Shown here in pieces: positions 40,190 through 61,710 of a stretch of DNA of 64,000 nucleotides. The DNA is from Bacteroidales bacterium (lineage in GTDB: Bacteria; Bacteroidota; Bacteroidia; Bacteroidales; UBA932), in NCBI GenBank assembly GCA_017437125.1, contig JAFSBV010000015.1:1-64000 (forward strand). The letters are read 5' to 3'. Below the pieces are notes generated by a model. It was not told where the DNA came from. It searched no databases and saw only the letters and a program-made list of their open reading frames with translations. The position numbers and the translations under genes were made by a program. Each line of letters starts with the position of its first letter. Position 1 is the first letter of the stretch.

Positions 40190-40197
40190 TAACTTTG
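40190..40197 (+). promoter_or_regulatory. -7 box of the M28 peptidase gene
   Basis: TAACTTTG, 59 bases before the ATG at 40257. No -33 TTTG was seen. Confidence 0.45.
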
Positions 40198-40256
40198 TCA
40201 TTTCCGGCCTTTCAAAAAGGCCTATGTCTAACTCAATATTAACGACTTGACAGGCT

Positions 40257-41846: not shown

Positions 41847-41866
41847 TATTACCGGTATCATACATA

Positions 41867-41900
41867 AAAGCGGCTGAATGTTGATTCATTCAGCCGCTTT
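41867..41900. terminator. bidirectional terminator
   Basis: A perfect 14-bp stem, AAAGCGGCTGAATG (41867-41880) with CATTCAGCCGCTTT (41887-41900), separates the facing M28 and carboxylesterase genes. Confidence 0.8.
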
Positions 41901-41919
41901 CAGTTTATCTTTTGTTCAA

Positions 41920-43392: not shown

Positions 43393-43422
43393 GATGTGTG
43401 TATTAATTATTGGTTGTGTTTT

Positions 43423-44589
<1,167 letters not shown>

Positions 44590-44616
44590 TTATTGGTTTG
44601 TGCTATCATGTTCTTG

Positions 44617-47600
44617 TTATCTGACTGGCTTCAGTCGGATTATTCCGACAGAATTTTCAGGAATCAGCATCTCGAAAGATTTTCTGACTTCTCCATATGC
44701 CTTTGTGTGCGGTACTACTGCTTCATTGTAGTTCACCCTCGGCGCGAATCTCCAAGCTCTTTCCCTCAATCCCGGTCTTTCGCCAGCCATCGGACCTGAT
44801 GAAGGAACTGATGAGTAGTCAGGGTGACTTGAATAATAATTCTGGTCACGCTGGTTCTTCACCTTCGTGTCATATGATGATATGAACTCTATGGTTGCTT
44901 CGTAAACCTTTTTGTTTCCCGTATTGATTGTGAATAACTTATTTACACACTCGGAGTTGACGAACTTGATGAATATCTCACCTGTTCCAGTGTCAATCGT
45001 AGGAGAAGTGAATATGGTCGTGTCAACCTTTTCACCATTCATTGCCAGTGACATTTCGAATGCCCTGTCTCCTGCAACAGAGAAAAGCTTCTGATAATAA
45101 TAGTTTGATGTCCTCCACATGCCTCTGTTGTCAAACCAGATCAGATTCGAGTTCCATTTGTTATATCCCTTCTTGCAGAATAGCGGAGCATATGCCGCCA
45201 TCACGACCATATCCGAATTTCTTTCGAGACTTGTCCAGTATGCGGCTTCAGCCATTGTAGAAGCATATGCATTGTTTGTCCTGTTGTTGGCGAACTCTCC
45301 TACAAACACTCTTGTAGGCTTGTTCCTGTCATATGTGTTGCCCTGGGCTCCGCGTACCATTCCTGCTTCGTATCTGTCTCCATGTGTATAGAACCAGTCA
45401 TCTCCCTTGTAATAGTGCTCGTCAACGATAGTGTCAGGATAGAGCTCGTCAATCACCTTCATGTTCTCGTCAAACTCCTTTCCGGAATCAGCTGATCCGG
45501 CTGTTGACACAATGATGATTTCCGGATATTTCTCCTTGATGGCCTTGTACATGATGTCGAATCTCTCCCAGAATGCCTCTCCCCTGTTCTCGTTTCCGAT
45601 TCCGAGATACTTGAGGTTGAACGGCTCAGGATGGCCCATTTCAGCTCTTTTCGCTCCCCATTCGGTATCAACCGATCCATTGCAGAATTCGATGAAGTCA
45701 AGAGCGTCATCGACAAAGATCGAATGGAAGCGTTCTATATCTTCCTGAGTTTCAAGCGGAGCGACATACTTGTGGCCTGCAAACTGACATGTCACGCCAT
45801 TGTTCAGGACCGGAAGAGGTGTGGCTCCAAGTGATTCTGCCATAAGAAGATACTCATAGAATCCGATGTGCTGTGATGTCCAGTAGCCCCAGTGGTTGCG
45901 GAATCCGATTCTCTCTTCTACAGGGCCGATGGAATTCTTCCAGAACACCTGTCCGTAATAGTCTGTGCCTTCTGATGCACATCCTCCAGGGAACCTCATG
46001 AATGTAGGATTCAGATCGTCAAGTGCCTGAAGGAGATCCTTTCTGAATGCACCGTATTTTCCGTCTTTCCAGAGCTGAGATGCTTCCGGTATCAAGGTGA
46101 CGAAGTCAAGATAGAATGTACCTTTTGCATCTGCCACTATGCAGAGACGACTGTCTGATGAACGTTCTGCCTTGAGTACGCCTTCATACTTCTTCCAGTC
46201 ATTCTCAAGTCCGGAAATCGTTATCCTGTTGGAATTTACATTACCTGCATTGTCCTCAAGATATATCGTAATGTTTCCTGGATATGAATCTCCCTGAAGG
46301 TAGAGTGAAAGATCATAGCGGACTTCCTTCTCCACAGGAATCGACGGAGTCTGGGTGTTGTTTGAGTAAAGTGTGCCTCTGCCCCATTTGAAAGGCGATA
46401 TGCCGTATCCGTTGGCGGCAATACCGAATCCGTTGCCCGGATCGTCAACATCAAACCTCACACTATACTGCCTGTATCTGACGCTGTCGTCATACTGGTC
46501 GTCCGGATCGAAATCATACAAAGGCTTCAGATCCTTTACAAGTGGCTTGTAATCGACCGCATGTGCTTCTCCAGCAGATCCTTCCTTTCTGATCACTGTC
46601 CATCCGTAGAACAATGTATCAGCGTACGAAAACTCTGTTGAATCATGTGCGACAGGAACATTATATGCCTGGAATGAGTTGTTCTGGATCAGCTGGGCGC
46701 AGATTCCTCCGTCAACAGACTGGTTTATGTCCTCGAAGAAGATTCCGCTGAGGGTCGGGCTGATTTCAATTCCCAGCTTCTTAGGCTTGAGGTCGAGTGT
46801 CCTTCTTTCAACCTCCTTGAAACCCTTGAGTTCCAGCATCTTGTCGGCAAAGCGATATCCAAGGAGCCTCATTCCTTCTGTGCTGAAATGGAACTGGTCT
46901 CCAGTGCTCTCACAGCCAAGTGCAGAGATGATATGTGCATTCGGAAGAACCTCCGGAAGACGAGGCATGATTGTGGTGTTGAATGCATGGCAGACACCTC
47001 CCTGCTCTGCATACTTGAGTTCTCCTGCCAGAAGCGGTGTCTCCTCAGGATCGAGACCAAGATCATTGCAGATATTGTCATATATCCTCTTTACTCTTTC
47101 CGGCCACAGGGGATCTTCTGAATTTGATTCTCCCTGATGCATGAGGATGCCCTTGATGACACCGTCCTTCTGAGCAATGCGGGCCATGTCGATAAGTCTT
47201 TGGTACGGATTTCCACCATAATGGCTTACGATAGCCTTCATCCAGTCTCTTTCATTGTCGATATAATCCTTGTAGTCCTCCTTGTCCCAGAGTTCGATCC
47301 TGGCTCCGGCAACTGAAACGTTGATTACGCCGATCCTGTAATTCTCAGGAAGCGACTCGATCATCTTCCTGCCGAAGAAATCAACAGGGCCAAGATTGTT
47401 TCCTTCCCTGCAGATTGGAGGAACTGCAGTGTACCAGTTGCCTTTCTCACGTCCGAGATTCGGCATATCGACAGCTGCCATGAATTGAAAACGGGGATCA
47501 TTGAAATCCTTGTCCTGCTCTGCTGGTCTGGCACCGGCTTCCATGTTGGACTGACCGATGCAGAGATAAATGTGAAAGTCAGGATCAGGCTGCTGAGAAA

Positions 47601-47655
47601 ATGCAGCTGCTGACGAGAACGAGAATGCAATAAGAAAAAGTAGGAATCTTTTCAT
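44617..47655 (-). CDS. SGNH acetylesterase-GH51 alpha-L-arabinofuranosidase fusion
   Basis: A 1012-residue protein with signal peptide (FLLFLIAFSFSSAAAFS). Residues about 20-265 are a sialate-O-acetylesterase-type SGNH domain: LCIGQSNMEAG (nucleophile Ser), NVSVAGARIELW, ILMHQGESNSEDP and DQFHFSTEGMRLLGY (Asp/His). Residues about 285-1010 are GH51: GIFFEDINQSVDGGICAQLI, RFPGGCASEGTDYYG, LGIGNENRGEAFWE (acid/base Glu) and TRVFVGEFANNRTN (nucleophile Glu). It would deacetylate and remove arabinose from arabinoxylan or related hemicellulose. It is first gene of the three-gene operon. Start 47655 opens the signal peptide. Confidence 0.9.
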   Translation of the reverse strand: MKRFLLFLIAFSFSSAAAFSQQPDPDFHIYLCIGQSNMEAGARPAEQDKDFNDPRFQFMAAVDMPNLGREKGNWYTAVPPICREGNNLGPVDFFGRKMIESLPENYRIGVINVSVAGARIELWDKEDYKDYIDNERDWMKAIVSHYGGNPYQRLIDMARIAQKDGVIKGILMHQGESNSEDPLWPERVKRIYDNICNDLGLDPEETPLLAGELKYAEQGGVCHAFNTTIMPRLPEVLPNAHIISALGCESTGDQFHFSTEGMRLLGYRFADKMLELKGFKEVERRTLDLKPKKLGIEISPTLSGIFFEDINQSVDGGICAQLIQNNSFQAYNVPVAHDSTEFSYADTLFYGWTVIRKEGSAGEAHAVDYKPLVKDLKPLYDFDPDDQYDDSVRYRQYSVRFDVDDPGNGFGIAANGYGISPFKWGRGTLYSNNTQTPSIPVEKEVRYDLSLYLQGDSYPGNITIYLEDNAGNVNSNRITISGLENDWKKYEGVLKAERSSDSRLCIVADAKGTFYLDFVTLIPEASQLWKDGKYGAFRKDLLQALDDLNPTFMRFPGGCASEGTDYYGQVFWKNSIGPVEERIGFRNHWGYWTSQHIGFYEYLLMAESLGATPLPVLNNGVTCQFAGHKYVAPLETQEDIERFHSIFVDDALDFIEFCNGSVDTEWGAKRAEMGHPEPFNLKYLGIGNENRGEAFWERFDIMYKAIKEKYPEIIIVSTAGSADSGKEFDENMKVIDELYPDTIVDEHYYKGDDWFYTHGDRYEAGMVRGAQGNTYDRNKPTRVFVGEFANNRTNNAYASTMAEAAYWTSLERNSDMVVMAAYAPLFCKKGYNKWNSNLIWFDNRGMWRTSNYYYQKLFSVAGDRAFEMSLAMNGEKVDTTIFTSPTIDTGTGEIFIKFVNSECVNKLFTINTGNKKVYEATIEFISSYDTKVKNQRDQNYYSSHPDYSSVPSSGPMAGERPGLRERAWRFAPRVNYNEAVVPHTKAYGEVRKSFEMLIPENSVGIIRLKPVR

Positions 47656-47674
47656 GATATCTGATAATTTCAAT

Positions 47675-47682
47675 CAAATATA
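47675..47682 (-). promoter_or_regulatory. -7 box of the hemicellulose operon
   Basis: TATATTTG on the minus strand, 19 bases before the ATG at 47655. It excludes the longer in-frame start at 47673. No -33 TTTG was found at 19-21 bases. Confidence 0.5.
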
Positions 47683-47756
47683 CAGAATTCCATTTCAAAT
47701 CCTTTTATTTATAAGGTTGATATGTCCTTATTGAACCAAAATTGAAAGAATTAGAT

Positions 47757-47800
47757 TAAAAGACAACTGCGGGAACTTCGTTCGAAGCCCCCGCAGTGTC
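47757..47800 (-). terminator. terminator of pta
   Basis: A long imperfect hairpin (47762-47780 with 47781-47800, ACTGCGGG against CCCGCAGT and CTTCG against CGAAG in the stem) is followed on the minus strand by TTTTAATC. It lies 20 bases beyond the pta stop. Confidence 0.75.
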
Positions 47801-47819
47801 ATCCGTTATGTGGAATTGA

Positions 47820-48827
47820 TTATTTCGCATCCATTGCCTGACATGCTGTGATTGCAACCATCTTATAGATGTCATCAACAGAACAACCACGGCTGAGGTC
47901 GTTTACAGGCTTTGCGATACCCTGAAGGATAGGTCCGATAGCATCTGCGTTACCAAGTCTCTGAACGAGCTTGTAAGCGATGTTTCCAACCTCGAGGCAA
48001 GGGAATACGAGAACATTTGCGTGTCCTGCGATCTCCGAACCCGGAGCCTTCTTCTGACCTACAGATGGAACGAGAGCGGCATCTGCCTGAAGTTCGCCTT
48101 CGATCTTGATTTCAGGATTGATCTCCTTGGCAAGTCTTGTGGCCTCCACTACTTTGTCAACTACTTCATGCTTTGCAGAGCCCTTTGTAGAGAACGAAAG
48201 CATTGCAACCTTAGGGTCTGCAAAACCAGCCACGCTCTTTGCTGTCTGAGCTGTGCATACCGCGATCTGAGCGAGCTGGGAAGCATCCGGCATAGGAGTT
48301 ACTGCAACGTCACCTACCACAAGAACACCATTCTCACCATATTCAGGAGTCTGTGTGATCATGAGCATTGCACCGCTTACGCATGAAATGCCAGGAGAGC
48401 ATTTGATGATCTGGAGTGCAGGTCTGAGGGTCTCGCCTGTTGTAGAGAGTGCACCGCTGATCTGTCCGTCTGCATCTCCGCTCTTTATGATGAGACATCC
48501 GAAATAAAGCGGGTCAAGCACAAGCTGTGCAGCCTTTTCAGGAGTCATACCCTTGTTCTTGCGGAGTTCATAAAGGAGATTTGCATATTCCGCTGTCTTT
48601 TCGCTTGTTGCAGGGTCGATGATTGTTGCCTTGCCGATATTCTTGAGTCCGAGCTTGTCTGCCAATGCGAAGATCTCGTCCGGATTACCGATAAGGATGA
48701 TGTCTGCGATTTCGTCTGCAAGTGACATGTCTGCAGCAGTCAGAGTACGCTCTTCAAGAGACTCAGGAAGCACGATGCGCTGTTTGTTTGATTTCGCGCG
48801 TGCGATGATGCTTTCAATAAGTGACAT
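47820..48827 (-). CDS. pta: phosphate acetyltransferase
   Basis: A 335-residue short-form PTA. It interconverts acetyl-CoA and acetyl phosphate, feeding acetate production. Signatures: RIVLPESLEERTLTAADM at the start, CLIIKSGDADGQISGALSTT (about residues 112-131), GVLVVGDVAVTPMPDASQLA, FSTKGSAKHEVVDKV and the end region VLVFPCLEVGNIAYKLVQRL and GPILQGIAKPVNDLSRGCSV. No acetate kinase gene is adjacent, although ackA is often a neighbour. Monocistronic, with -7 box and terminator. Confidence 0.95.
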   Translation of the reverse strand: MSLIESIIARAKSNKQRIVLPESLEERTLTAADMSLADEIADIILIGNPDEIFALADKLGLKNIGKATIIDPATSEKTAEYANLLYELRKNKGMTPEKAAQLVLDPLYFGCLIIKSGDADGQISGALSTTGETLRPALQIIKCSPGISCVSGAMLMITQTPEYGENGVLVVGDVAVTPMPDASQLAQIAVCTAQTAKSVAGFADPKVAMLSFSTKGSAKHEVVDKVVEATRLAKEINPEIKIEGELQADAALVPSVGQKKAPGSEIAGHANVLVFPCLEVGNIAYKLVQRLGNADAIGPILQGIAKPVNDLSRGCSVDDIYKMVAITACQAMDAK

Positions 48828-48892: not shown

Positions 48893-49345
48893 TTATCCAA
48901 GAGATTCCAATTTTTCCAGCAAACCCCTGCAACCTTCCGTCACATCTTTGAATGTCTGCTCGAAATCACCTGTGTACCATGGATCAGCTACATCTCTGTA
49001 TTCTCCAGCATATTCCATCATAAGACGGACATCTGTTATGTCTCCGACGATTCTCGAAAGCCATCTGAGATTCGATCTGTCCATCACGATCACCACGTCC
49101 TGTTCCGCGAATTCCCGGGCCGAGATCTTGTGAGCGCTGTGATGCCCGAAAGGAATCCCCTTCTCACGCAGTTTCCTTTGAGCGGGAGGATATATCGGAT
49201 TTCCCCACTCCTCATCTGATACCGCACCTGAAGAAATCTCATATTTCTTTTCAAGTCCGGCCTTCTTTACAAGATCCTTCATCACATATTCTGCCATCGG
49301 ACTTCTGCATATGTTTCCGTGGCAAAGGAACATTATCTTCTTCAT
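48893..49345 (-). CDS. low-molecular-weight protein-tyrosine phosphatase
   Basis: A 150-residue protein from MKKIMFLCHGNICRSPMAEY, which carries the CxxxxxRS phosphate loop (nucleophile Cys, Arg) at the extreme N-terminus. The general-acid Asp is in DVADPWYTGDFEQTFKD. It dephosphorylates phosphotyrosine in proteins; in bacteria the targets are often tyrosine kinases for exopolysaccharide synthesis, but none is nearby. It diverges from the sugar operon. Confidence 0.93.
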   Translation of the reverse strand: MKKIMFLCHGNICRSPMAEYVMKDLVKKAGLEKKYEISSGAVSDEEWGNPIYPPAQRKLREKGIPFGHHSAHKISAREFAEQDVVIVMDRSNLRWLSRIVGDITDVRLMMEYAGEYRDVADPWYTGDFEQTFKDVTEGCRGLLEKLESLG

Positions 49346-49369
49346 AACGGATAGTCTGAGATTATTCGT

Positions 49370-49377
49370 CAAAGATA
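49370..49377 (-). promoter_or_regulatory. -7 box of the phosphatase gene
   Basis: TATCTTTG on the minus strand, 24 bases before the ATG at 49345. Confidence 0.45.
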
Positions 49378-49413: not shown

Positions 49414-49421
49414 TATATTTG
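49414..49421 (+). promoter_or_regulatory. -7 box of the sugar operon
   Basis: TATATTTG, 29 bases before the ATG of the first gene (49451). It is the only promoter-like element seen for the eight genes. No -33 TTTG at the usual spacing, so activation by a regulator is possible. Confidence 0.5.
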
Positions 49422-49450: not shown

Positions 49451-50854
49451 ATGGAAAACGGATATTACAAACTCACATGGCGCCAGCGCATAGGATTCAG
49501 TGCGGGAGATCTCGCTCAGAATCTGATTTATCAGACTGTCAGCATCTGGCTGCTGTTCTTTTATACAAATGTATATGGACTGAACCCCGCTTCATCAGCC
49601 CTGATGTTTCTGATTGTTCGTATAATAGATGTTCTGTGGGATCCGGTTGTCGGAGCATTCATCGACAAGTCCAATCCACGATGGGGAAAATACCGTTCGT
49701 GGCTGCTTTTTGCCGGCTTTCCTCTTGCAGGATTCGCCATGTTATGCTTCTGGAACGGATTCAGCGGTTCCCTTCTATATGCATATATCACATATGTCGG
49801 CATGAGCATGTGCTTCACACTGATCAACGTTCCATATGGGGCCTTGAATTCCTCCCTTACCAGGGATACGGAAGAGATTACCGTCCTTACCAGCGTCAGG
49901 ATGTTATTCGCCAATCTTGCAGGATTGATAATCAAGACTCTGCCACTTGTGATCGCGATATTCGCTCCTAAGGTTTATAATGCAGATACCGGCAGAATGG
50001 AAGCCGTTTACAATACTCCTGAAGCCGCTCAGGCATGGTTCATCACCATGAGCATTTTCGCTCTTACAGGCCTCGCACTGCTCATTTTCTGTTTCTTCGA
50101 AAGCAAGGAGCGCATCGTGATGAATCCGGATGAGACATCTGAAGTGAAGGTCAGCGATCTCTGGATGGAGCTTGTCCGCAACAGGCCTCTCCGCATTTTG
50201 TCCATATTCTTTGTCATTTCATTCACGACGATGAGCATAAGCAATGCTGCGGACTCCTACTTCATGTCATATAACATCAAGGCCACTCCATTGATGACTA
50301 CTGCCTTCATGTGGATGGGAACGATACCAGCATTCATATTCCTGCCTCTCGTACCGGCTATAAAGAAAAAGATAGGCAAGTCAGGCATGTTCCGCCTGTT
50401 CCTCGGTATTTCGGTGATAGGAATGGTGATCATGTATATCGTCGTTTCAATACCGGCACTGAAGTCCTGTTTCCCGCTGCTCTGCATCATTCAGTTCATC
50501 AAAAGCGCAGGAATACTCGTCGCTACAGGCTATATGTGGGCTCTTGTTCCTGAGGTCGTCTCGTATGGCGAATATACGACAGGAAGGCGTGTGGCCGCAA
50601 TAGTGAATGCAATAATATGCATATTCATGAAAGCTGGAATGGCGCTTGGCGGTGTGATTCCTGGACTCGTCCTTACATGGGTGGGATTCAATTCCGCAGA
50701 TCAGAATCAGACCGCCCTGGCTGAACAAGGCATTCTCTGGCTTGTAACCCTTATTCCTGCCGTACTGTTCATTGCAGCGGTATTCGTGATAGGAAAATAT
50801 GAGCTTTCTGACGAAAGAATGGACGAAATAAATCTTGAAATAACCAAACGTTGA
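49451..50854 (+). CDS. GPH-family sugar:cation symporter
   Basis: A 467-residue inner-membrane protein with twelve hydrophobic segments. The glycoside-pentoside-hexuronide family opening RIGFSAGDLAQNLIYQTVSI and the loop DVLWDPVVGAFIDKSNPRWG-KYRSW (in two pieces) are diagnostic, with NVPYGALNSSLTRDTEE in loop 4-5. Relatives import melibiose, xylosides or glucuronides with Na+ or H+. As first gene of the operon it presumably brings in the glycoside or sugar used by the downstream enzymes. A second, unrelated FucP-type transporter is encoded later in the same operon. Confidence 0.88.
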   Translation: MENGYYKLTWRQRIGFSAGDLAQNLIYQTVSIWLLFFYTNVYGLNPASSALMFLIVRIIDVLWDPVVGAFIDKSNPRWGKYRSWLLFAGFPLAGFAMLCFWNGFSGSLLYAYITYVGMSMCFTLINVPYGALNSSLTRDTEEITVLTSVRMLFANLAGLIIKTLPLVIAIFAPKVYNADTGRMEAVYNTPEAAQAWFITMSIFALTGLALLIFCFFESKERIVMNPDETSEVKVSDLWMELVRNRPLRILSIFFVISFTTMSISNAADSYFMSYNIKATPLMTTAFMWMGTIPAFIFLPLVPAIKKKIGKSGMFRLFLGISVIGMVIMYIVVSIPALKSCFPLLCIIQFIKSAGILVATGYMWALVPEVVSYGEYTTGRRVAAIVNAIICIFMKAGMALGGVIPGLVLTWVGFNSADQNQTALAEQGILWLVTLIPAVLFIAAVFVIGKYELSDERMDEINLEITKR

Positions 50855-50859
50855 CATAT

Positions 50860-51744
50860 ATGAAATACTCTTCAAATCCCGACACGATAACACGTGATTA
50901 TTTCGATTCACTGCTGCTTGAAACGCGTTATATCGATTCCATGCTCCCAGACACAGGAATGAACCTTTATGGCGTTGATTTCGACACACCTATAATGACT
51001 GCTGCCCTCTCCCACCTCCATAATATAGCGGAGGATGGTATGACTGTATATGCGAAAGGAGCGGCAATCAGCAATGCCGTACATTGGGTCGGAATGGGTG
51101 AAGATGAAGAATTGGAAAGAGTAACGGCTACCGGAGCCAGGTCGATAAAGATAATCAAGCCTCATGCTGATAACAGAGAAGTGTTCCGAAAGATTGAACA
51201 TGCCGTATCAGCCGGCTGTCTTGCTGTAGGAATGGATACGGACCATGCCTTCAATGCTCATGGCGGATATGATGATGTATTCGGCCTTCCGATGAAGCCT
51301 AAGTCAACTGAAGAACTTGCGGAATTCGTTGCCGCAGCCAAGGTTCCTTTCATTGTGAAGGGCGTGCTCAGTCCTCGTGACGCTGAAAAATGTGCGAAGG
51401 CCGGATGTGCAGGAATCGTCGTTTCTCATCACCATGGAATGGTTCAGTATTCTGTACCGCCTCTCATGGTTCTTCCGGATGTGGTTTCGGCAGTCGGTAA
51501 GGATATGCCGGTATTCATAGACTGTGGCATATCAAGCGGCATGGATGTCTATAAATGTCTTGCCCTCGGTGCAAAGGCCGTATCCGTCGGCAGGCATCTG
51601 ATGCCGTTGCTGAAGAACGGTCCTGAAGCCATTGCACAGAGAATCAATGAAATGACCTCCGAACTTGCCGGAATCATGGCAAGGACAGGCGTGAAATCTC
51701 TTGATGATATGGACCCTTCGGTAATTCATAGGAGGAACTTCTGA
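50860..51744 (+). CDS. FMN-dependent alpha-hydroxy-acid-dehydrogenase-like protein, altered active site
   Basis: A 294-residue TIM-barrel flavoprotein. FMN-site motifs are intact: PFIVKGVLSPRDAEKCAKAG (Lys) and IDCGISSGMDVYKCLALGA followed by VSVGR. The catalytic loop differs from the family's SNHGxRQLD: here it reads SHHHGMVQYS. The base His is kept, but the position of the substrate-carboxylate Arg (Arg257 of spinach glycolate oxidase) is Met by direct alignment, and the neighbouring residues also change. It is shorter than glycolate oxidases (about 360). It may oxidise an unusual hydroxy acid or sugar acid, or do other FMN chemistry. It lies six bases after the transporter and overlaps the next gene by one base. 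A TTG start at 50851 is less likely. Confidence 0.75.
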   Translation: MKYSSNPDTITRDYFDSLLLETRYIDSMLPDTGMNLYGVDFDTPIMTAALSHLHNIAEDGMTVYAKGAAISNAVHWVGMGEDEELERVTATGARSIKIIKPHADNREVFRKIEHAVSAGCLAVGMDTDHAFNAHGGYDDVFGLPMKPKSTEELAEFVAAAKVPFIVKGVLSPRDAEKCAKAGCAGIVVSHHHGMVQYSVPPLMVLPDVVSAVGKDMPVFIDCGISSGMDVYKCLALGAKAVSVGRHLMPLLKNGPEAIAQRINEMTSELAGIMARTGVKSLDDMDPSVIHRRNF

Positions 51745-52565
51745 TGTATCTTGGTATTTCTTCACGATTGGAGCACGAGTCTCCGCAGGAATGGGCATCC
51801 AAGCATAAATCCCTTGGATTGAAGAGTGTTGTCTTTCCGGTATCATGTCTCGACGGCATTGATACGGTATCGGCATATAAGAAGGCGGCTGATGATGCCG
51901 GTCTATCCATTGCCGAAGTCGGGATATGGAGGAATACGCTGGCTGCTGATCCGGATGAAAGACAGAAATGGATCGATTATTCGATAGAGCAGCTCAGAAT
52001 GGCTGATGCTATCGGTGCGACCTGCTGCGTCAATGTCGTAGGTACACCTTACGGGCCGAGATGGGACGGAGGTTATCGCGGTAATTTCAGTACGGAACTA
52101 TGGGATATGGCCGTAAGGATGATCCGTCAGATCATTGATACGGCACGTCCTGCTCATACGAAGTTCTGCATCGAGTCCATGCCATGGATGATTCCGAGCT
52201 CGCCGGATGAATATGTCCGTCTTATCGAAGATGTGGACAGGGCTGAATTCGGTACGCATCTGGATGTGGTTAATATGATTACATCGCCACGACGATACTT
52301 CTTCAATGACGAATTCCTGCACGAGTGCTTTGAAAAGCTTGAAGGAACCATCTGCAGCTGTCATCTGAAGGATATCAGACTTAAAGAGGAATATACATTC
52401 CAGCTTGAGGAATGTCCATGTGGTGACGGTATTCTGGATATAGGGCTGTATGCCCGTCTGGCAGACATGGAGAACCCGGATATGCCGATGATAATAGAGC
52501 ATCTGACAACTGACGAGGAATATGCCTCCAGCGTCAGATATGTGAAAGAAAGACTTGGATTATAA
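51744..52565 (+). CDS. sugar phosphate isomerase/epimerase-like TIM barrel
   Basis: A 273-residue AP_endonuc_2/xylose-isomerase-like protein. Four metal ligands are placed as in the family: Glu in KFCIESMPWMIP, Asp in EFGTHLDVVNMI, His in CSCHLKDIRL and Glu in PMIIEHLTTDEEY. Relatives isomerise or epimerise keto-sugars, including tagatose, tagaturonate and inosose substrates, or dehydrate inosose. In this operon an epimerisation connected with the L-sugar acid intermediate is possible; this is inference. Start and previous stop overlap as TGATG. Confidence 0.78.
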   Translation: MYLGISSRLEHESPQEWASKHKSLGLKSVVFPVSCLDGIDTVSAYKKAADDAGLSIAEVGIWRNTLAADPDERQKWIDYSIEQLRMADAIGATCCVNVVGTPYGPRWDGGYRGNFSTELWDMAVRMIRQIIDTARPAHTKFCIESMPWMIPSSPDEYVRLIEDVDRAEFGTHLDVVNMITSPRRYFFNDEFLHECFEKLEGTICSCHLKDIRLKEEYTFQLEECPCGDGILDIGLYARLADMENPDMPMIIEHLTTDEEYASSVRYVKERLGL

Positions 52566-52595
52566 AGAGTGAAATCATTATCAAATTTATTCAAT

Positions 52596-54035
52596 ATGAA
52601 CAGAATCATTACAATTATTGCATGTCTTGGTCTTGTGGCTTGTACAGCCAAGACCACTACAGTTACGGTTGACCGTATGACTCATGATCCGAACGCGACT
52701 AACACAGAGACCATTCTTCATGTATGGAGCTGGAACTTCCCTACCATCGCTGAGAACATGAAGCAGATTGCAGATGCAGGATTCACCATGATCCAGACCT
52801 CTCCCGTAAATGCCTGCTTCAGCCCTGAGGGTGGAAATATAAAGATCCTTGACGAAAAGGAGGGAAACTGGTATCATTATTATCAGCCGACAGACTGGAC
52901 TATCGGTAATAATATAGTAGGTACGGAAGCCGAGATGAAGGTCATGCTTGATTCTGCGGATAAATATGGGATCAGAGTTCTTGTAGATGTGCTTCCGAAC
53001 CACACTGCATTCGATATCGATCTCGTTACAGACGAGTTCTATGAGGCTGTCGGTGGCAGGGAGAAGATGTTCCATACTCATGGTCTTGAGGGTATCAATG
53101 ACTATAACGACCGTACCCAGTGTACACATCAGGGTGTCGGCGGCCTTCCTGACGTAAACACAGAGAATCCGCTTTTCCAGAAATATTACATGCAGTTCGT
53201 CAACAAGCTCATAGAAATGGGAGTCCGCGGTTTCCGTTATGACACTGCAAAGCATATCGGTGTTCATTCTGATCCTCTTGATACTGATGCAGGTGTGACA
53301 GAAAACGATTTCTGGGATGTCGCAACAGGACGAAAGGAAGTTCTCGGAGTCTCGTTGGCAATTCCTTATGACAGCCTTTTTGTGTATGGCGAGGTTCTTC
53401 AGGACAGAAATGTCCCTGAAGAGGAATATGCCGGCTATTTCGGACAGACTGCTTCAAGCTATGGACATGTACTTCGTGAAGTACTCGCAAAGCGCAGTGC
53501 AAAGGATATTGATGTCCTTTCATGGTATCACAGGGCTGCTCCAGAGTATCTTACCACATGGGTGGAAAGTCATGATACATATTGCAATGCAAATGAAAGC
53601 GCAGGTCTGACAGATGCCCAGATCCGAACAGGATGGGTTTTCCTTACTGCACGTCAGAACGGTACTCCTCTCTTCTACAGCCGTCCGATGAACTCTACGC
53701 GAGAGAATTATTTCGGTGACAACCTTCTTGGTGAACGCGGAAATGATGAATTCTTCCATCCTGAAGTTGTTGCTGTAAACAAGTTCCGTCAGCAGATGGA
53801 AGGTCAGACTGAGAATGTTCAGATCTCTGCAGACGGTGAGGTGATTGTTGTCAACCGTGGAGACAAGGGTACTGCAATCATAAATTTCGCACTTGAAGAG
53901 AATTCTGTGGAACTTGCCACGAATCTTCCTGACGGAGACTATACCGATATCGTATATGGTCAGACTTTCAATGTAGTGAATGGTACTCTCAAGGGTGTTG
54001 CAATGCCTGAGAGAACCTATATTATCGTAAGATAA
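52596..54035 (+). CDS. GH13 alpha-amylase-family lipoprotein (AmyE-like)
   Basis: A 479-residue protein from MNRIITIIACLGLVACTAKT, with lipobox LVAC. The opening VWSWNFPTIAENMKQIADAG and TMIQTSPVNACF resemble the Bacillus AmyE type (GH13_28). Regions: VLVDVLPNHTAF (I), GVRGFRYDTAKHIG with nucleophile Asp (II), FVYGEVLQ (III, Glu) and TWVESHDTYCN (IV, Asp). A small C-terminal beta domain follows. It sits in the periplasm or on the cell surface. Its place between an isomerase and L-galactose-route genes is odd for a starch enzyme and suggests an unusual alpha-glycoside. Start 52596 opens the signal; 31 bases after the previous gene. Confidence 0.85.
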   Translation: MNRIITIIACLGLVACTAKTTTVTVDRMTHDPNATNTETILHVWSWNFPTIAENMKQIADAGFTMIQTSPVNACFSPEGGNIKILDEKEGNWYHYYQPTDWTIGNNIVGTEAEMKVMLDSADKYGIRVLVDVLPNHTAFDIDLVTDEFYEAVGGREKMFHTHGLEGINDYNDRTQCTHQGVGGLPDVNTENPLFQKYYMQFVNKLIEMGVRGFRYDTAKHIGVHSDPLDTDAGVTENDFWDVATGRKEVLGVSLAIPYDSLFVYGEVLQDRNVPEEEYAGYFGQTASSYGHVLREVLAKRSAKDIDVLSWYHRAAPEYLTTWVESHDTYCNANESAGLTDAQIRTGWVFLTARQNGTPLFYSRPMNSTRENYFGDNLLGERGNDEFFHPEVVAVNKFRQQMEGQTENVQISADGEVIVVNRGDKGTAIINFALEENSVELATNLPDGDYTDIVYGQTFNVVNGTLKGVAMPERTYIIVR

Positions 54036-54051
54036 CATAAAGACTTAAGCC

Positions 54052-54987
54052 ATGGTTTATAATGAAATAGGAAAAACCGGAATGAAGGTTTCAAACCTCG
54101 GATTCGGAGCATCTTCATTAGGAGGTGTATTCCGTGGAATAGACGAGGGTGAAGCCATAAAGGCCGTTCATACAGCAGTTGACAACGGTATCAACTTTAT
54201 TGATGTTTCGCCTTATTACGGTCACTTGAAGGCGGAAACTGTCTTGGGAAAGGCTTTGAAGGAGATTCCAAGAGACAGGTTCATCCTGTCAACCAAGGTC
54301 GGCCGATATGGCAAGGACGGAGTCAATACATGGGATTATTCCGCAAAAAGGGCAACTGAAAGCGTCTATGAGAGCATGGAAAGGCTGAATGTGGATTTCA
54401 TAGACCTTATTAATGTTCATGATGTTGAGTTTACCGACCTTCGTCAGGTCGCCGAAGAGACTCTTCCAGCTCTTGTAGAGCTAAGGAAAAAGGGCGTGGT
54501 AGGACATGTGGGAATCACAGACCTTCAGCCGGAGAATCTGAAATGGCTTGTGGAGAATACCGATGAAGGAACCATCGAGAGCATCCTGAACTTCTGCCAC
54601 TACTGTCTTAACGATGACCTTCTTCTTGATTATCTTGATTTCTTCGAGGAAAGGGGTATCGGCATAATCAACGCTTCCCCTCTTTCAATGGGACTCCTTT
54701 CACAGAGAGGTACTCCGGACTGGCATCCTGCACCTGAGCCTCTGAAACAGGCTTGCGCCCGTGCGGCGGCATTCTGCAACGAACAGGGATATCCTATAGA
54801 AAAACTGGCGGTACAGTATTCTACAAGCCTGAATCCTCGAATTGCCACTACTCTTTTCAGCAGCGCCAATCCGGATAATGTCCTCAAGAATATATCATAT
54901 GTCAATGAGCCGCTCGATATGGAACTTGTAGCCAAGGTAAGGGAAATCATCGGAGACCAGATGAGGGTTAGATGGAAAAACAGCTGA
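54052..54987 (+). CDS. aldo/keto reductase, L-galactose/L-fucose 1-dehydrogenase type
   Basis: A 311-residue NAD(P)-dependent aldo/keto reductase. Catalytic residues: Asp and Tyr in FIDVSPYYGHLKAETVLG, Lys in FILSTKVGRYG and His in LINVHDVEF. The segments GFGASSLGGVFRGID, NFCHYCLNDDLLLDYL and INASPLSMGLLSQRGTPDWH resemble plant L-galactose dehydrogenase closely. The expected reaction is oxidation of L-galactose (or L-fucose, which has the same stereochemistry at C2-C5) to the 1,5- or 1,4-lactone. The following amidohydrolase would open the lactone. Confidence 0.82.
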   Translation: MVYNEIGKTGMKVSNLGFGASSLGGVFRGIDEGEAIKAVHTAVDNGINFIDVSPYYGHLKAETVLGKALKEIPRDRFILSTKVGRYGKDGVNTWDYSAKRATESVYESMERLNVDFIDLINVHDVEFTDLRQVAEETLPALVELRKKGVVGHVGITDLQPENLKWLVENTDEGTIESILNFCHYCLNDDLLLDYLDFFEERGIGIINASPLSMGLLSQRGTPDWHPAPEPLKQACARAAAFCNEQGYPIEKLAVQYSTSLNPRIATTLFSSANPDNVLKNISYVNEPLDMELVAKVREIIGDQMRVRWKNS

Positions 54988-54991
54988 TGTC

Positions 54992-55909
54992 ATGAAGATC
55001 ATCGATACTCACAGCCATTTGTGGCTCAGACAGGACACTTCCTGGAACGGAAAGCCTATCAGATCTCTCAGGAACGGAAGATCCATATTCCTTGGTGAGG
55101 AAGTTCAGATGATTCCTCCGTTCATAATAAATGGAGAGAATTCCGCTGAAGTCTTTCTTTCAAATATGGACTATGCCCAGGTCTCGGCAGCTGTCGTGGT
55201 ACAGGAACTTATAGACGGCTGCCAGAATGACTATCTTCTTGAAGTCAGCAACAAATATCCCGACCGCTTCATCACCTGTGGCATGTGTGATTATTTTGCT
55301 CAGGATCTCGAGCGTCAGGCAGGAGAACTGGTAGCTAAAGGGTTCAAGGGCATCGCGATTCCAGGCCACAGACTCATCCAGGATGATGTCCGGATCATGC
55401 TCAACTCCCCTGAGATGCTGAAGATGTTCAAACTGATGGAAGATAAGGATGTTTTTCTTTCAATCACTCTTGCAGACGGAGACGAGCAGGTTCCTGAAAT
55501 GAAGGACGTGATAAGCGAATGTCCTGATCTGAGGATAGCCATAGGGCATTTCGGAATGCCTACCCGTGAAAACTGGCTTGAACAGGTGAAACTGGCAGAA
55601 AACAAGAATGTTTTCGTCGAATCAGGAGGAATCACATGGCTATACAACAGTGAGTTCTATCCATTTGACGGAGCTGTCCGCGCAATCAGGGAAGCGGCAG
55701 ATGCCGTCGGTATGGAAAAGCTTATGTGGGGAAGCGACTACCCTCGCACGATCACGGCGATAACATACCGTATGTCATATGACTTCATCCTGAAGAGCAA
55801 GGAACTCACGCAAGAAGAGAAAAGCATGTTCCTTGGTGAAAACGCGTGCCGCTTCTACCGTCTTGAAAACCTTATCGACTTACCTTATATAAAAAACATG
55901 TCTGAATGA
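54992..55909 (+). CDS. amidohydrolase-family sugar lactonase
   Basis: A 305-residue protein of the amidohydrolase_2/cog3618-like group. Metal and catalytic motifs: IDTHSHLW (HxH), KGIAIPGHRL, RIAIGHFGMP (His) and MWGSDYPRT (Asp). Members of this group hydrolyse sugar lactones, including L-fucono- and L-galactono-lactone. Its place directly after the dehydrogenase (four bases) and before a FucP-type permease (ATGA overlap) supports that role. A decarboxylase function, known for other amidohydrolase_2 members, is less likely in this context. Confidence 0.8.
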   Translation: MKIIDTHSHLWLRQDTSWNGKPIRSLRNGRSIFLGEEVQMIPPFIINGENSAEVFLSNMDYAQVSAAVVVQELIDGCQNDYLLEVSNKYPDRFITCGMCDYFAQDLERQAGELVAKGFKGIAIPGHRLIQDDVRIMLNSPEMLKMFKLMEDKDVFLSITLADGDEQVPEMKDVISECPDLRIAIGHFGMPTRENWLEQVKLAENKNVFVESGGITWLYNSEFYPFDGAVRAIREAADAVGMEKLMWGSDYPRTITAITYRMSYDFILKSKELTQEEKSMFLGENACRFYRLENLIDLPYIKNMSE

Positions 55910-57159
55910 TGAAACGTAAACTGATCCTGCCTCTGGCACTTGTATTCTGCCTTTTCTTCCTGTGGGCGATAAGCAGCAATCTCCTGCCCACAATGATCAG
56001 GCAGCTGATGAAGACCTGTGAACTGAATGCTTTTGAAGCTTCTTTCACAGAAACAGCATATTGGCTTGCATACTTCATCTGCCCTATTCCGATTGCAATG
56101 TTCATGAAACGCTACAGTTATAAGGCCGGAATCATATTCGGACTGCTTCTTGCTGCAGGCGGCGGACTTCTTTTCTTCCCTGCCGCTATCATCAAGGAGT
56201 ACTGGGCTTATCTGTGCATATTCTTTGTCATTGCAACAGGAATGTGTTTCCTGGAAACGGCTGCCAATCCATATGTCACCGCACTTGGAGATTCGGAGTC
56301 GGCACCAAGAAGACTTAATCTTGCTCAGTCGTTCAACGGACTTGGAGCATTCGTTGCAGCGATGTTCCTGAGCAAACTTGTTCTCAGCGGAAATACATAT
56401 ACAAGAGAAACTCTTCCGCAGGGATTCGAAGGCGGCTGGGAAGGATATATCCAGATGGAGACAGATGCGATGAAGCTTCCGTATCTAATTCTTGCTGCTG
56501 TCCTTATCATAATTGCAGTGATGTTCATCATCGTCAAGCTACCTAAGATCAAGGAGGAGGAAGAGAATCTTGATGACAAGTCGCAGCCACTTATCGATTT
56601 CAGCGTTCTCAAGCGATCTCACCTACGCTGGGGAGTGATTGCCCAGTTCTTCTATAACGGAGGCCAGACTGCCGTAAACAGCCTTTTCCTTGTCTATTGC
56701 TGCAATTATGCGGGGTTGTCCGAGAGTACAGCTACAACCTTCTTCGGCCTGTATATGCTGGCATTCCTTCTCGGAAGATGGATCGGTACGGCTCTTATGA
56801 TCAGGTTCAAGCCGCAGAACATGCTGACTGCTTATGCGATCGTAAATATTCTTCTTTGCGGAGTGATCATGATATTCGGAGGTATGACAGGACTTTATGC
56901 GATGCTTGGAGTATCGTTCTTCATGTCTATCATGTATCCGACTCAGTTCTCACTCGCCATAAACGGCCTTGGCGAACAGACAAAGAGCGGATCTGCATTC
57001 CTGGTGATGGCAATCGTAGGAAATGCATGTCTTCCACAGCTGACTGCATTCATAATGCATCATAATCCGCAGATCTATCAGATAGCATATGTTGTTCCGC
57101 TGATATGTTTCATCTTCTGTGCATATTACGGATGGAAAGGATATAAAGTAAAAGAATAA
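55906..57159 (+). CDS. FucP-type MFS sugar:H+ symporter
   Basis: A 417-residue major facilitator with twelve hydrophobic segments. FucP-like signatures are FFLWAISSNLLPTMIRQLMK (first helix), GMCFLETAANPYVTALGDSE (the conserved ETAANPY of the fucose permease group) and RLNLAQSFNGLGAF. It should import L-fucose or its C6-hydroxy analogue L-galactose with a proton. It overlaps the lactonase gene by four bases and the alcohol dehydrogenase start by one (TAATG). Confidence 0.88.
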   Translation: MMKRKLILPLALVFCLFFLWAISSNLLPTMIRQLMKTCELNAFEASFTETAYWLAYFICPIPIAMFMKRYSYKAGIIFGLLLAAGGGLLFFPAAIIKEYWAYLCIFFVIATGMCFLETAANPYVTALGDSESAPRRLNLAQSFNGLGAFVAAMFLSKLVLSGNTYTRETLPQGFEGGWEGYIQMETDAMKLPYLILAAVLIIIAVMFIIVKLPKIKEEEENLDDKSQPLIDFSVLKRSHLRWGVIAQFFYNGGQTAVNSLFLVYCCNYAGLSESTATTFFGLYMLAFLLGRWIGTALMIRFKPQNMLTAYAIVNILLCGVIMIFGGMTGLYAMLGVSFFMSIMYPTQFSLAINGLGEQTKSGSAFLVMAIVGNACLPQLTAFIMHHNPQIYQIAYVVPLICFIFCAYYGWKGYKVKE

Positions 57160-58175
57160 TGAAAGCATTGAATATAACCGGTGAGCGCCATATGGCGGTT
57201 GTCGATATCCCGGAACCGGAGATCGGATGTGATGAAGTCCTCTTGAGGATGGAATACGTAGGATTCTGCGGATCAGATCTCAATACTTATCTTGGAAAGA
57301 ACCCTATGGCCAGACTTCCGGTTATTCCCGGCCATGAAATTGGAGCGGTCATAGAAAAAACAGGTTCTGATGTACCTGATTTTCTCAAACCTGGAATGAA
57401 TGTGACCGTCAATCCTTATACCAATTGCGGAAAATGTGCCTCATGCCGCAACGGAAGGGTCAATGCATGTCAGTATAACGAAACACTTGGCGTGCAGCGT
57501 GATGGAGCCATGAGGGAAAGAATGGCCATTCCTTGGACCAAGATCATCCCTGCAGAGGGTCTTTCCACAAAGACATGTGCGATCGCTGAGCCTATGAGTG
57601 TCGGTTTTCATGCTGTTGCGAGAGCCGAAGTATCAGATATAGATACAGTAATGGTGATCGGTTGCGGTATGGTCGGCCTGGGAGCTGTGATACGCTCTGC
57701 AAGAAGAGGGGCAACAGTCATTGCTGCTGACATAGATGATGGCAAGCTGGCTCTTGCAAAGGAACTTGGAGCTGCACACGTAATCAACAATGTCACTGAA
57801 GACGTTCATGCAAGGCTGGATGAAATAACGGGAGGATTCTTTCCTGATGTGATCATTGAGGCTGTAGGCAGCCCTGCAACATACAGAATGGCTGTAGATG
57901 AGGCTTCGTTCACAGGAAGAGTCATATGCATCGGATATGCGAAATCCGAAGTCTCTTTCCAGACAAAGCATTTTGTTCAGAAGGAACTGGATATCAGAGG
58001 ATCACGTAATGCCCTTCCGTCAGATTTCAGGGCAGTCATCAGATATCTTCAGGAAAATACCTGTCCTGTTGATAAGCTTGTCAGTAAAACAACAACTCCC
58101 GATGACGCAGAACAGGCCATCAGGGAGTGGTCGGAAGCACCTGGCAAGGTGTTCAGAATATTGGTCAGCTTTTAG
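57159..58175 (+). CDS. zinc-dependent alcohol dehydrogenase, probable L-galactonate 5-dehydrogenase
   Basis: A 338-residue medium-chain dehydrogenase. Catalytic zinc ligands: Cys in EYVGFCGSDLNTY, the pair His-Glu in VIPGHEIGAV. Structural zinc: CGKCASCRNGRVNACQ (four Cys). The Rossmann motif is VIGCGMVGLGAVIRSARRGA with ADIDDGK, whose Asp favours NAD+. Relatives include L-idonate, sorbitol and L-galactonate dehydrogenases. In the Bacteroides vulgatus L-galactose route such an enzyme oxidises L-galactonate to D-tagaturonate. It is the last gene of the operon; its stop overlaps the facing SGNH gene by four bases. Confidence 0.83.
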   Translation: MKALNITGERHMAVVDIPEPEIGCDEVLLRMEYVGFCGSDLNTYLGKNPMARLPVIPGHEIGAVIEKTGSDVPDFLKPGMNVTVNPYTNCGKCASCRNGRVNACQYNETLGVQRDGAMRERMAIPWTKIIPAEGLSTKTCAIAEPMSVGFHAVARAEVSDIDTVMVIGCGMVGLGAVIRSARRGATVIAADIDDGKLALAKELGAAHVINNVTEDVHARLDEITGGFFPDVIIEAVGSPATYRMAVDEASFTGRVICIGYAKSEVSFQTKHFVQKELDIRGSRNALPSDFRAVIRYLQENTCPVDKLVSKTTTPDDAEQAIREWSEAPGKVFRILVSF

Positions 58176-59849: not shown

Positions 59850-59908
59850 TAACGTGTCAGAAACACGTCCGATAATATGTTGTTCTGACTGTAGTGAGTG
59901 GCGTAACT

Positions 59909-60244
59909 ATGGCAAAGAAAACCCTCATATATGATTTTTCTGCTCTGAAAGGGAAAGTTACTATTTCGGAGCAGAAACCTGCCATTCCTGAAACTAAGCC
60001 GTCCGTAATATCAACATCTGTAAAAACGGTAAAGGAAACTCCTCTGAAGGTCGGACAGAGTGTCGTCCTGATGGATTCCGATCTTCGTGGCAGAATAGTT
60101 TCCATAGGCAGGAAGGTCGGTGTCGAGCTGGAAGACGGGCTGCTGATTGAAGCGGCATATGGAGAGTTCGCCGTCACTTCCCTATCAGAGTTGTCTTCCT
60201 TGAAGGGAACAAAAGTCAAGACAAAGAGGCAGAAGCATTCCTGA
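59909..60244 (+). CDS. N-terminal part of a disrupted Smr-domain protein
   Basis: 111 residues from MAKKTLIYDFSALKGK. Residues about 48-95 form a small KOW/SH3-like barrel (LKVGQSVVLMDSDLRGRIVS, IGRKVGVELEDGLLIEA). The frame stops at a TGA at 60242-60244 after a basic linker KVKTKRQKHS. The next reading frame immediately continues with the end of an Smr domain, so this is the 5' part of a longer gene, comparable to Bacteroidetes DUF2027/Smr proteins. Whether the truncated product is still functional is unknown. The ATG at 59894 is an alternative start. Confidence 0.6.
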   Translation: MAKKTLIYDFSALKGKVTISEQKPAIPETKPSVISTSVKTVKETPLKVGQSVVLMDSDLRGRIVSIGRKVGVELEDGLLIEAAYGEFAVTSLSELSSLKGTKVKTKRQKHS

Positions 60245-60452
60245 AGGACAGCAGCTTCAATTTCAGCTTGAGACATTCAGGAAGGTTATACGTCAGAACC
60301 TCTCACATAAAGGCATGACCATCACTTTCATTCATGGCATAGGAGACGGCATACTTAAAGATGCAATCCGGAAGGAACTGGACGAAGTCCTTGCTCTCAG
60401 ATGCAGCTATTCAGTGGGTGATCCAGCAGTCACCATCGTGACAATAAGGTAA
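60243..60452 (+). pseudogene. Smr-domain 3' part in the +1 frame
   Basis: The +1 frame relative to the preceding gene encodes GQQLQFQLETFRKVIRQNL, then ITFIHGIGDGILKDAIRKEL and ends GDPAVTIVTIR. FIHGxGxGxLK and the final TIVTIR are the diagnostic second half of the Smr (MutS2 C-terminal) nuclease domain. The first half, with the LDLH motif, is missing and no start codon is available, so a segment appears deleted together with a frame change. Intact Smr domains cut branched or single-stranded nucleic acids. Confidence 0.75.
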
Positions 60453-60465
60453 GCCATATTGTTAC

Positions 60466-60473
60466 TAAGTTTG
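60466..60473 (+). promoter_or_regulatory. possible -7 box of proC
   Basis: TAAGTTTG, 27 bases before the ATG at 60501. Confidence 0.35.
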
Positions 60474-60500
60474 ACTTTGAAAGCATTTTAACTGTGGAAT

Positions 60501-61292
60501 ATGAAAATAGCGATAATCGGAACAGGAAACATGGGCGGAGCCATCGCAGCAGGCCTCGCCAAGGGTAAGATCGTAGAATCGGGAAATATGATCTGTACAG
60601 CACGGACACAGAAGACTTTGGACAAGATAAGGTCAATGGATCCTGAAATAGCAGTTACTACCGATAACGTTATGGCAGTAAAGGAAGCGGATGTCGTGAT
60701 CCTCGCAGTAAAGCCATGGCTGATGGAAAATGTCATTGCCGGATTCAGGGAATATGTGGATATTTCAAGACAGATTTTCGTGTCTGTAGCAGCGGGAATA
60801 ACATTGGAAGAACTCAGTACATGGATCTGGCCTATTCAGCCTTCTTGTGTATCTGTATTCAGAGCCATACCGAATACAGCGGCAGCCGTGCTTGCCAGCA
60901 TGACCTTCATTGCGTCTGCAAATGCTGATGCAGAACAGATAAAGCTTGTAACAGATATCTTCGATGAAATGGGCAGTACCATGTATGTTGAAGAGAGACT
61001 GATTCCTGCAGGAACCGCTCTCGCCTCATGTGGAATTGCATTCGCAATGAGATACATAAGGGCAGCATCTGAAGGAGGAGTCGAGATAGGATTCCGTCCT
61101 GATGAAGCCAGGAAGATCGTTGAATATACCGTCAAAGGCGCTGCAGAACTGCTTCTTGCAAGTGACGGTCATCCCGAAGCAGAAATCGACAAGGTAACCA
61201 CAGCTGGCGGAATAACCATCAAGGGCTTGAACGAGATGGAGCATGAAGGATTCACATCAGCTGTAATCAAAGGCCTGAAGGCTTGTATTTAG
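60501..61292 (+). CDS. proC: pyrroline-5-carboxylate reductase
   Basis: A 263-residue protein. It reduces pyrroline-5-carboxylate to L-proline with NAD(P)H, the last step of proline synthesis. Rossmann motif MKIAIIGTGNMGGAIAAGLA at the start, VVILAVKPWLMENV, VSVAAGITLEEL, FRAIPNTAAAV, and the C-terminal substrate region EIDKVTTAGGITIKGLNEME, where the usual TPGGTT reads TAGGIT. Length is normal. The motif variation does not touch the glycine pair. Confidence 0.93.
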   Translation: MKIAIIGTGNMGGAIAAGLAKGKIVESGNMICTARTQKTLDKIRSMDPEIAVTTDNVMAVKEADVVILAVKPWLMENVIAGFREYVDISRQIFVSVAAGITLEELSTWIWPIQPSCVSVFRAIPNTAAAVLASMTFIASANADAEQIKLVTDIFDEMGSTMYVEERLIPAGTALASCGIAFAMRYIRAASEGGVEIGFRPDEARKIVEYTVKGAAELLLASDGHPEAEIDKVTTAGGITIKGLNEMEHEGFTSAVIKGLKACI

Positions 61293-61389
61293 AATGGATC
61301 ATGCTCGCCTGCCTGAATGATCCGGAGGTCGGAAAGGTGCTCATCATCAACATTGATATTTCTTAATCAGCACAACAAATAGTATAATT

Positions 61390-61710
61390 ATGATACTCAC
61401 TACAACCCAGTCCATTGAAGGACGCACAATAGTGGAATACAAAGGAATAGTATTCGGCGAGGTGATCAGCGGCGTGAATTTCCTCAAGGATTTCGGAGCA
61501 AGCATCCGCAACATCATCGGCGGACGTTCAAGTTCATACGAGAACGAACTTCTCTCAGCCAGAACCAAGGCATTGAGAGAACTTGAAGACAGGGCAAGAG
61601 CGATGGGAGCCGATGCCGTCGTAGGAATCGACATTGACTATGAGGTCCTCGGAGAAGGAGGCGGAATGCTTATGGTCACTGCCTCAGGAACAGCTGTAAG
61701 ACTGAGATAG
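61390..61710 (+). CDS. YbjQ/UPF0145 heavy-metal-binding-like protein
   Basis: A 106-residue protein matching UPF0145 throughout: [40 protein letters not shown], then [20 protein letters not shown] and [10 protein letters not shown] at the end. The family forms a homopentamer and is often called putative heavy-metal binding, without proven function. The 97-base gap after proC has no promoter that I recognise. It converges with a DUF2461 gene. Confidence 0.88.

Follow-up and report, generated by a model that had tools for sequence, protein, structure and literature searches.

Do eight tightly spaced sugar genes on one strand form a single pathway, or have separately inherited pieces come to lie side by side? 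The question is raised by a run of genes in a stretch of 64,000 nucleotides (nt) from a Bacteroidales bacterium (contig JAFSBV010000015.1 of assembly GCA_017437125.1, positions 1 to 64,000), hereafter called the window. A previous interpretation made from the letters alone (the sequence-only reading) had suggested one larger pathway, including the cleavage of an alpha-linked glycoside. We propose, with a probability of about 0.62, that the run is a composite operon in which two separately inherited cassettes (genes A to C and genes E to H) are placed around an older resident gene, D. The L-galactose part would be a known kind of system, and the A-C cassette is the part that we consider worth testing.

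In our reading of the open reading frames (ORFs), all eight genes lie on the plus strand between 49451 and 58175 and are nearly gapless. They are designated A to H, G-numbers denote genomes of relatives and L-numbers denote locus stretches of those relatives.

49451..50854, plus strand: A, GPH-type cation symporter, MFS_2 (467 amino acids; TIGR00792 at 327.5 bits for a cut-off of 231)
50860..51744, plus strand: B, short flavin mononucleotide (FMN) barrel enzyme with the alpha-hydroxy-acid dehydrogenase fold (294 amino acids; PF01070, FMN_dh, 186 bits)
51744..52565, plus strand: C, xylose-isomerase-like TIM barrel (273 amino acids; PF01261, AP_endonuc_2, 70 bits)
52596..54035, plus strand: D, glycoside hydrolase family 13 (GH13) lipoprotein, AmyE-like alpha-amylase (479 amino acids from the lipoprotein-type ATG)
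54052..54987, plus strand: E, aldo/keto reductase (Aldo_ket_red) of the L-galactose dehydrogenase type (7lh6 over all 311 residues, E-value 4e-155)
54992..55909, plus strand: F, amidohydrolase (Amidohydro_2, PF04909), probable L-galactono-lactonase (NF052480 fuconolactonase at 45 bits for a cut-off of 400)
55906..57159, plus strand: G, FucP-type sugar:H+ symporter (TIGR00885 fucP at 335 bits for a cut-off of 280; TIGR01272 gluP at 232 for 203)
57159..58175, plus strand: H, zinc alcohol dehydrogenase, probable L-galactonate 5-dehydrogenase (PF08240, ADH_N; PF00107, ADH_zinc_N)

Counting B from the ATG at 50860 (a start common to L116 and L117) and D from the lipoprotein-type ATG at 52596 (a GTG lies ahead of it, at 52569), the intergenic spacings are 5 nt for A-B, 30 nt for C-D, 16 nt for D-E and 4 nt for E-F, with overlaps of 1 nt for B/C, 4 nt for F/G and 1 nt for G/H. 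The codirectional and tight arrangement described by the sequence-only reading (overlaps or gaps of at most 31 bases) was therefore borne out, and its family assignments for the eight genes agree with the profile matches.

Units of the run among relatives

The separation of the units is clearest in two relatives, G491 and G490. There, A-B-C occur together at 83-86% identity (L116, L117), headed by an A orthologue at 85-86%, E-H lie on other contigs and D stands apart from both. The last four genes are thus found together with the first four elsewhere, A-C and D being at other loci, and a single eight-gene pathway in which the GH13 enzyme releases an L-sugar, as previously suggested, is not supported, since synteny separates A-C, D and E-H.

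The E-H unit was examined at 80 loci, the best of at least 575 confirmed relatives that were recovered when genomes were scanned with E; the flanks covered reach 10 kb per side at most and are often shorter through contig ends. On the strand of E and within 8 kb, H was present at 74 of these 80 loci, F at 62 and a FucP-like G at 39; at the 71 loci with at least 6 kb past the E start, H was found within 6 kb downstream in 69 and F in 57. None of the genes A-D was detected beside E at any of the 80 loci, within the flanks searched (tblastn, 1e-10 and 1e-5). L004, L005, L006 and L022 are the loci in the window order E-F-G-H with the highest identity to E, and the flanks of such runs differ: in L004, a GDSL-like ORF (read from sequence) stands before E and H is followed by a TrpB-like gene, and L006 is flanked by ORFs resembling polysaccharide-degradation genes (also read from sequence). 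We suggest that E-H is inherited as a unit, separately from A-D.

The A-C genes appear to form a second, separately inherited cassette for some other sugar or sugar acid. In L117, the neighbours of A-C are on the opposite strand. A-B-C are also together at 72-80% identity in G621 and G496 (C being cut by the contig end in the latter). A and C are preceded by an iron alcohol dehydrogenase in G661 and G573 (L131, 4167-7572; L132, 8847-12292); this enzyme was identified by scan in G573 and by sequence in G661, and B was not found in the A-C stretches of these two genomes, to which the search was confined. The FMN gene B appears to have been replaced there by a non-homologous one, which hints at the kind of step that B performs. 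In G587, C-B follow an aldo/keto reductase and A is not among them; G610 has a C fragment only, and G165, which belongs to another family, has B-C without A. In G573, the A-C cluster extends into genes of the SusC and SusD families and one of the prolyl-oligopeptidase family. Near A-C, the stretches of G573 and G661 each have at their end a partial GH95-like gene, which is 33-35% identical to the GH95 found near E.

These genes are uncommon. C was recovered in 7 of the 200 genomes of the genus sample (drawn from a larger genus), the window's included, and in 8 of 344 order-sample genomes, namely the window's, G165 (78%) and six others with 37-43% identity. B matches 11 of 149 genomes of the family sample, the ten besides the window's at 21-35% identity and E-values above 5e-5, and 2 of the 344 order-sample genomes at 1e-10. 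Among 768 plasmid records, the best B homologue (43%) is on a Sarcina plasmid (L096, 7923-8873), and neither A nor C was recognisable among its annotated neighbours. A search for B relatives in viral contigs gave eight pattern matches, none of them related; in PHROGs, C had no match and B matched three weak families without known function (best E-value 0.0014). A single narrow literature search found no A-B-C-like cassette. A paralogue of A (70-71%) lies beside GH10, GH43 and GH67 in L181, and three further copies have similar neighbours by eye. In another Bacteroidales genome, three xylose-isomerase-like barrels, one of them 39% identical to C, stand with a phosphotriesterase-family protein (L121, 7922-14119).

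Gene D was found at 84-89% identity in G489, G490 and G491 among 11 genomes tested; it was detected in 1 of the 149 genomes of the family sample (threshold 1e-20) and in 8 of 247 from the order (1e-30), the window's being counted in both. Its best solved sequences are alpha-amylases, and the segments GFRYDTAKH, VYGEVLQD and ESHD, which we take to carry the roles of the GH13 Asp-Glu-Asp triad, are retained in four homologues, so that the triad is present. Three features lie upstream of A:

47820..48827, minus strand: pta, which adjoins D in G491, is one ORF away from it in G490 and marks the presumed original D locus
48893..49372, minus strand: ORF resembling low-molecular-weight phosphatases (by its sequence), which separates pta from A
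49414..49421, plus strand: candidate -7 promoter element TAnnTTTG (TATATTTG), upstream of A

In L150 (G491), D is 106 bases from pta and divergent from it, and in L148 (G490) one ORF separates the two; the phosphatase-like ORF of the window is absent between pta and D in both. Within an 18-kb stretch of L148, D is flanked by four window genes of 32832-48827 on one side and two of 59894-61710 on the other, and this stretch contains neither A-C nor E-H. In L150, five window genes of 35126-48827 lie on the pta side of D. D is therefore probably a resident gene of the pta locus, and comparison with these relatives suggests that the window arrangement is the derived state. A similar pair of regulator and kinase genes, read from sequence, is seen before D in G489 (L149, 484-4630) and upstream of E in L004 (5026-10936).

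The eight genes probably form one transcription unit. The sequence-only reading had noted one visible promoter, and indeed a single TAnnTTTG, presumably the Bacteroidota -7-like consensus, lies upstream at 49414, with no other on the plus strand from this site through the end of H. This is weak evidence when taken alone: the motif occurs 41 times in the window against a shuffle mean of 30.6, and 5 of 100 shuffles reach 41. It also stands shortly 5' of A in L116, L117, L133 and L135 (by eye). A sigma-70-type promoter scan gave 21 sites for 19.0 expected and a terminator scan 16 terminator-like sites for 8.1 expected, those on the plus strand of the operon being all intragenic; neither scan is informative.

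Substrates and enzyme signatures

The claim that the last four genes correspond to a route from L-galactose to D-tagaturonate gained support from the best structures of E, the L022 run and the G587 locus. By homology, each of the top five PDB matches of E bears the name L-galactose dehydrogenase, and the first of them (7lh6) aligns over all 311 residues. L022 contains the run E-F-G-H-tagaturonate reductase-altronate/galactarate-family dehydratase, the last genes being 2 nt apart (reductase NF002969, 639 bits for a cut-off of 359); it is the only one of the 80 loci where E-H is continued in this way. A single locus of G587 combines E, FucP, a SusC/SusD pair, a 57% H, a dehydratase of that family, glucuronate isomerase, tagaturonate reductase, a sugar kinase resembling 2-keto-3-deoxygluconate (KDG) kinase and KDPG aldolase; F was not found in this E-locus stretch. 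In the window genome itself, tagaturonate reductase (NF002969, 648 bits), a dehydratase and glucuronate isomerase stand side by side on contig C38, the PF20629 protein beside the reductase having galactarate dehydratase, below cut-off, as its sole NCBIfam match.

GH95 genes also point to L-galactose. In G573, one belongs to the run of E, where it follows ORFs that look like SusC and SusD in sequence, and a second is 0.75 kb before E in L076; T-x-N-x-N is present in both by motif match, made without alignment. In the part of PMC4491172 consulted, Thr370 occupies in the L-galactosidase the position where the fucosidase has His, and the functional meaning of this is left unsettled there.

L-fucose, degraded via its lactone and L-fuconate, had been named as an alternative substrate. 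G indeed exceeds the fucP cut-off and the sole NCBIfam match of F is a fuconolactonase, at 45 bits for a cut-off of 400. However, the nearest structures to E are L-galactose dehydrogenases, the GH95s near E at two loci are of the Thr type, and L-galactose is favoured because the L022 run continues into tagaturonate reductase and a dehydratase-family gene. We consequently regard L-fucose as disfavoured and quite improbable, and E-H as a supported candidate for an L-galactose route of the Bacteroides vulgatus type, the specificities of E, F, G and H being predicted from homology and gene context.

Such a pathway, encoded by BVU_0219-0222 of Phocaeicola (Bacteroides) vulgatus, was reportedly described by Hobbs et al. 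in 2014, a study to which PMC12632266 refers. The order there, which we take to be dehydrogenase, lactonase, permease and zinc dehydrogenase, is that of E-H; the window differs in that A-C and a GH13 gene precede E-H in the joined run.

Two other systems are comparable. In the portion of PMC12632266 consulted, lguA-H of Luteolibacter LG18 encode a dual L-glucose/L-galactose pathway, which resembles the present one by its L-galactose dehydrogenase and the D-tagaturonate node. According to the same portion, lguG, an epimerase gene outside the main cluster, feeds D-tagaturonate from L-glucose (5-keto-L-gluconate epimerase), and LguG was recognised by its similarity to IolO. A link of C with the function of LguG is an idea and not a result: a 12-sequence profile of C matches only 3tva, 3p6l, 3dx5 and 5tnv at E-values up to 0.01, and hence no IolO or tagatose-epimerase structure, in a comparison confined to structures and so apart from the LguG and IolO sequences themselves. 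LG18 differs further in that 'FMN' does not occur in the main text of PMC12632266. The second system is the corn-xylan polysaccharide utilisation locus of Bacteroides ovatus, which includes the GH95 alpha-L-galactosidase BACOVA_03438 (PMC4491172, in the part consulted). It offers a source of free L-galactose, as the Thr-type GH95s near E in G573 and L076 might, and differs from the window run in that a scan of the eight genes found no GH95, SusC or SusD among them.

The C-terminal half of B, including the phosphate-binding end, aligns with glycolate and lactate oxidases, and B is without their N-terminal part. In a nine-row alignment, the segment that reads SNHGGR in a Vescimonas homologue is SHHHGM or SHHHGI in seven Bacteroidales sequences and SHHHGR in Sarcina. 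His-Gly-Gly-Arg is presumably the catalytic motif of FMN alpha-hydroxy-acid dehydrogenases, with Arg binding the carboxylate; it is not present in B, and the Arg is retained in the Sarcina and Vescimonas homologues. The loss of this Arg and of the N-terminal part makes an ordinary lactate or glycolate oxidase disfavoured. In C, E144, D174, H207 and E252 are invariant in 12 aligned sequences, four of which are at 35-41%. As Glu-Asp-His-Glu is, we assume, the metal site of PF01261 isomerases and epimerases, C has what is expected of a putative metal-dependent isomerase or epimerase. An orthology of C to IolO or LguG was not shown by the profile comparison above. A role of C in C-glycoside or 3-keto-glycoside conversion and a 4-O-methylglucuronate pathway for A-C were also considered, the sole evidence sought being the xylan-cluster paralogue of A.

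A more specific proposal, which we hold to be unlikely as a whole, is that A-B-C make up a catabolic cassette of an undescribed kind. Its sugar or sugar acid would be oxidised or reduced by an FMN enzyme that has departed from alpha-hydroxy-acid chemistry, and whose place can be taken by an iron alcohol dehydrogenase or by an aldo/keto reductase, and would be epimerised by C into the D-tagaturonate/D-fructuronate node. If this were true, L-galactose and a second rare cell-wall sugar would have a common outlet.

The composite operon and its rivals

The proposed composite would work as follows. G would import L-galactose, and E, F and H would convert it to L-galactono-lactone, L-galactonate and D-tagaturonate, which the tagaturonate reductase and the altronate/galactarate-family dehydratase of C38 would carry on to KDG. 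A, B and C would provide a symporter, an oxidoreductase and a metal-dependent isomerase or epimerase acting on another sugar or sugar acid, possibly one related to L-galactose or the uronate node; the oxidoreductase role would be filled here by the FMN enzyme and, in some relatives, by the iron alcohol dehydrogenase or aldo/keto reductase beside C. D would already have been at the pta locus, and the placement of A-C before it and of E-H after it would have given one transcription unit. Such an arrangement would illustrate the assembly of modules by the joining of two cassettes around a resident gene. It would also assign an L-galactose route to relatives of the window genome that are known mostly from metagenomes, and isolate a small conserved cassette of symporter, variable oxidoreductase and metal-dependent barrel.

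A functional tie between A-C and L-galactose is suggested by the distribution of C and E in the genus sample, where the searches for both carry the same genome handles where listed. E is present in six of the seven C-positive genomes and in 25 of all 200; the exception is G610 with its C fragment. The co-occurrence was also computed leaving out the G610 fragment; the hypergeometric probability is 1.4e-5 when the window genome is included and 9.5e-5 when it is not. Outside this sample, G165, G490 and G491 hold both C and E. We consider this tie as suggestive only, since the co-occurrence may reflect common descent, the carriers being clustered on the E tree, and since several carriers lack a full E-H run at the E locus. 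The larger pathway of the sequence-only reading thus keeps the association of A-C with E, weakened by shared ancestry, and loses the idea of a single eight-gene route.

Several observations weigh against the composite reading and its functional side. Of the 10 A-C carriers on the 29-row E tree, 9 fall in one group of 14 (support 93/89), and carrier status changes 6 times for a shuffle mean of 8.6, 22 of 500 shuffles being as low. On this tree, G489 and G519 are one genome by coordinates and were counted once, G489 is labelled a carrier solely from an 88% A cut by a contig end, and G488 a non-carrier from the A search alone. Judged from the stretch around the E locus, the E-H runs of carriers are often incomplete (E alone in G573, E and G in G621, E and H in G661, E, G and H in G587); the E locus of G496 is cut by a contig end, and G165 is the sole carrier with all four genes, in the order E-H-F-G. 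The D gene of G489 comes after regulator and kinase genes instead of pta, close to a contig end. The incomplete E-H runs and this other D locus slightly lowered our confidence. In addition, same-strand ORFs lie close on both sides of A-C in L116, so that the block need not be self-contained, and A-C are joined to E-H in the window only, no second genome with the fusion having been found. For the L-galactose assignment, E, F and H are under every curated NCBIfam cut-off, and PF20629 was found in four of eight E-bearing genomes (G000, G490, G491 and G587); it was not found in G573, G621, G661 and G165, though L-galactose dehydrogenase is present there (completeness is 75% for G621 and 85% for G661).

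The same composite structure could have arisen by accident, with A-C serving an unrelated sugar and D and E-H having merely gained the promoter of A; this alternative denies the functional tie only. The clustering of carriers on the E tree and the single sighting of the fusion speak for it, as does the separation of A-C or B-C from E-H in all the other carriers read (G490, G491, G621, G661, G573, G587, G496 and G165). The six C carriers with E among seven, the seventh having a C fragment, and the presence of both genes in G165, from another family, argue in the other direction, and we judge a purely accidental neighbourhood to be a serious possibility, although not the one that we expect. We give far less credit to one eight-gene pathway, in which the GH13 enzyme and the symporter would free and import an alpha-linked L-sugar glycoside to be used by A-H. 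The tight spacing and the single promoter-like motif would suit it, but D is apart from A-C and E-H in G489, G490 and G491 and retains ordinary alpha-amylase active-site segments, and A-D stand beside none of the best 80 relatives of E; this makes it very improbable. Equally hard to believe is a chimeric contig in which the joined operon would not be real. The window genome is fragmented (99 contigs) and a second copy of the fusion was not found; however, genes of both flanks of the locus surround D in G490, the eight reading frames are intact with operon-like spacing, and the GC contents of A-C, D and E-H (47.5, 45.3 and 46.7%) are close to that of the window (45.9%). We thus retain the composite operon as the preferred reading.

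Beyond the run, the window encodes at 44617-47673 a protein of 1018 amino acids whose N-terminal part is SGNH/acetylesterase-like (as read from sequence) and whose C-terminal part is 33% identical to the alpha-L-arabinofuranosidase of L133. A homologue of this protein (81%) lies beside pta in G491.

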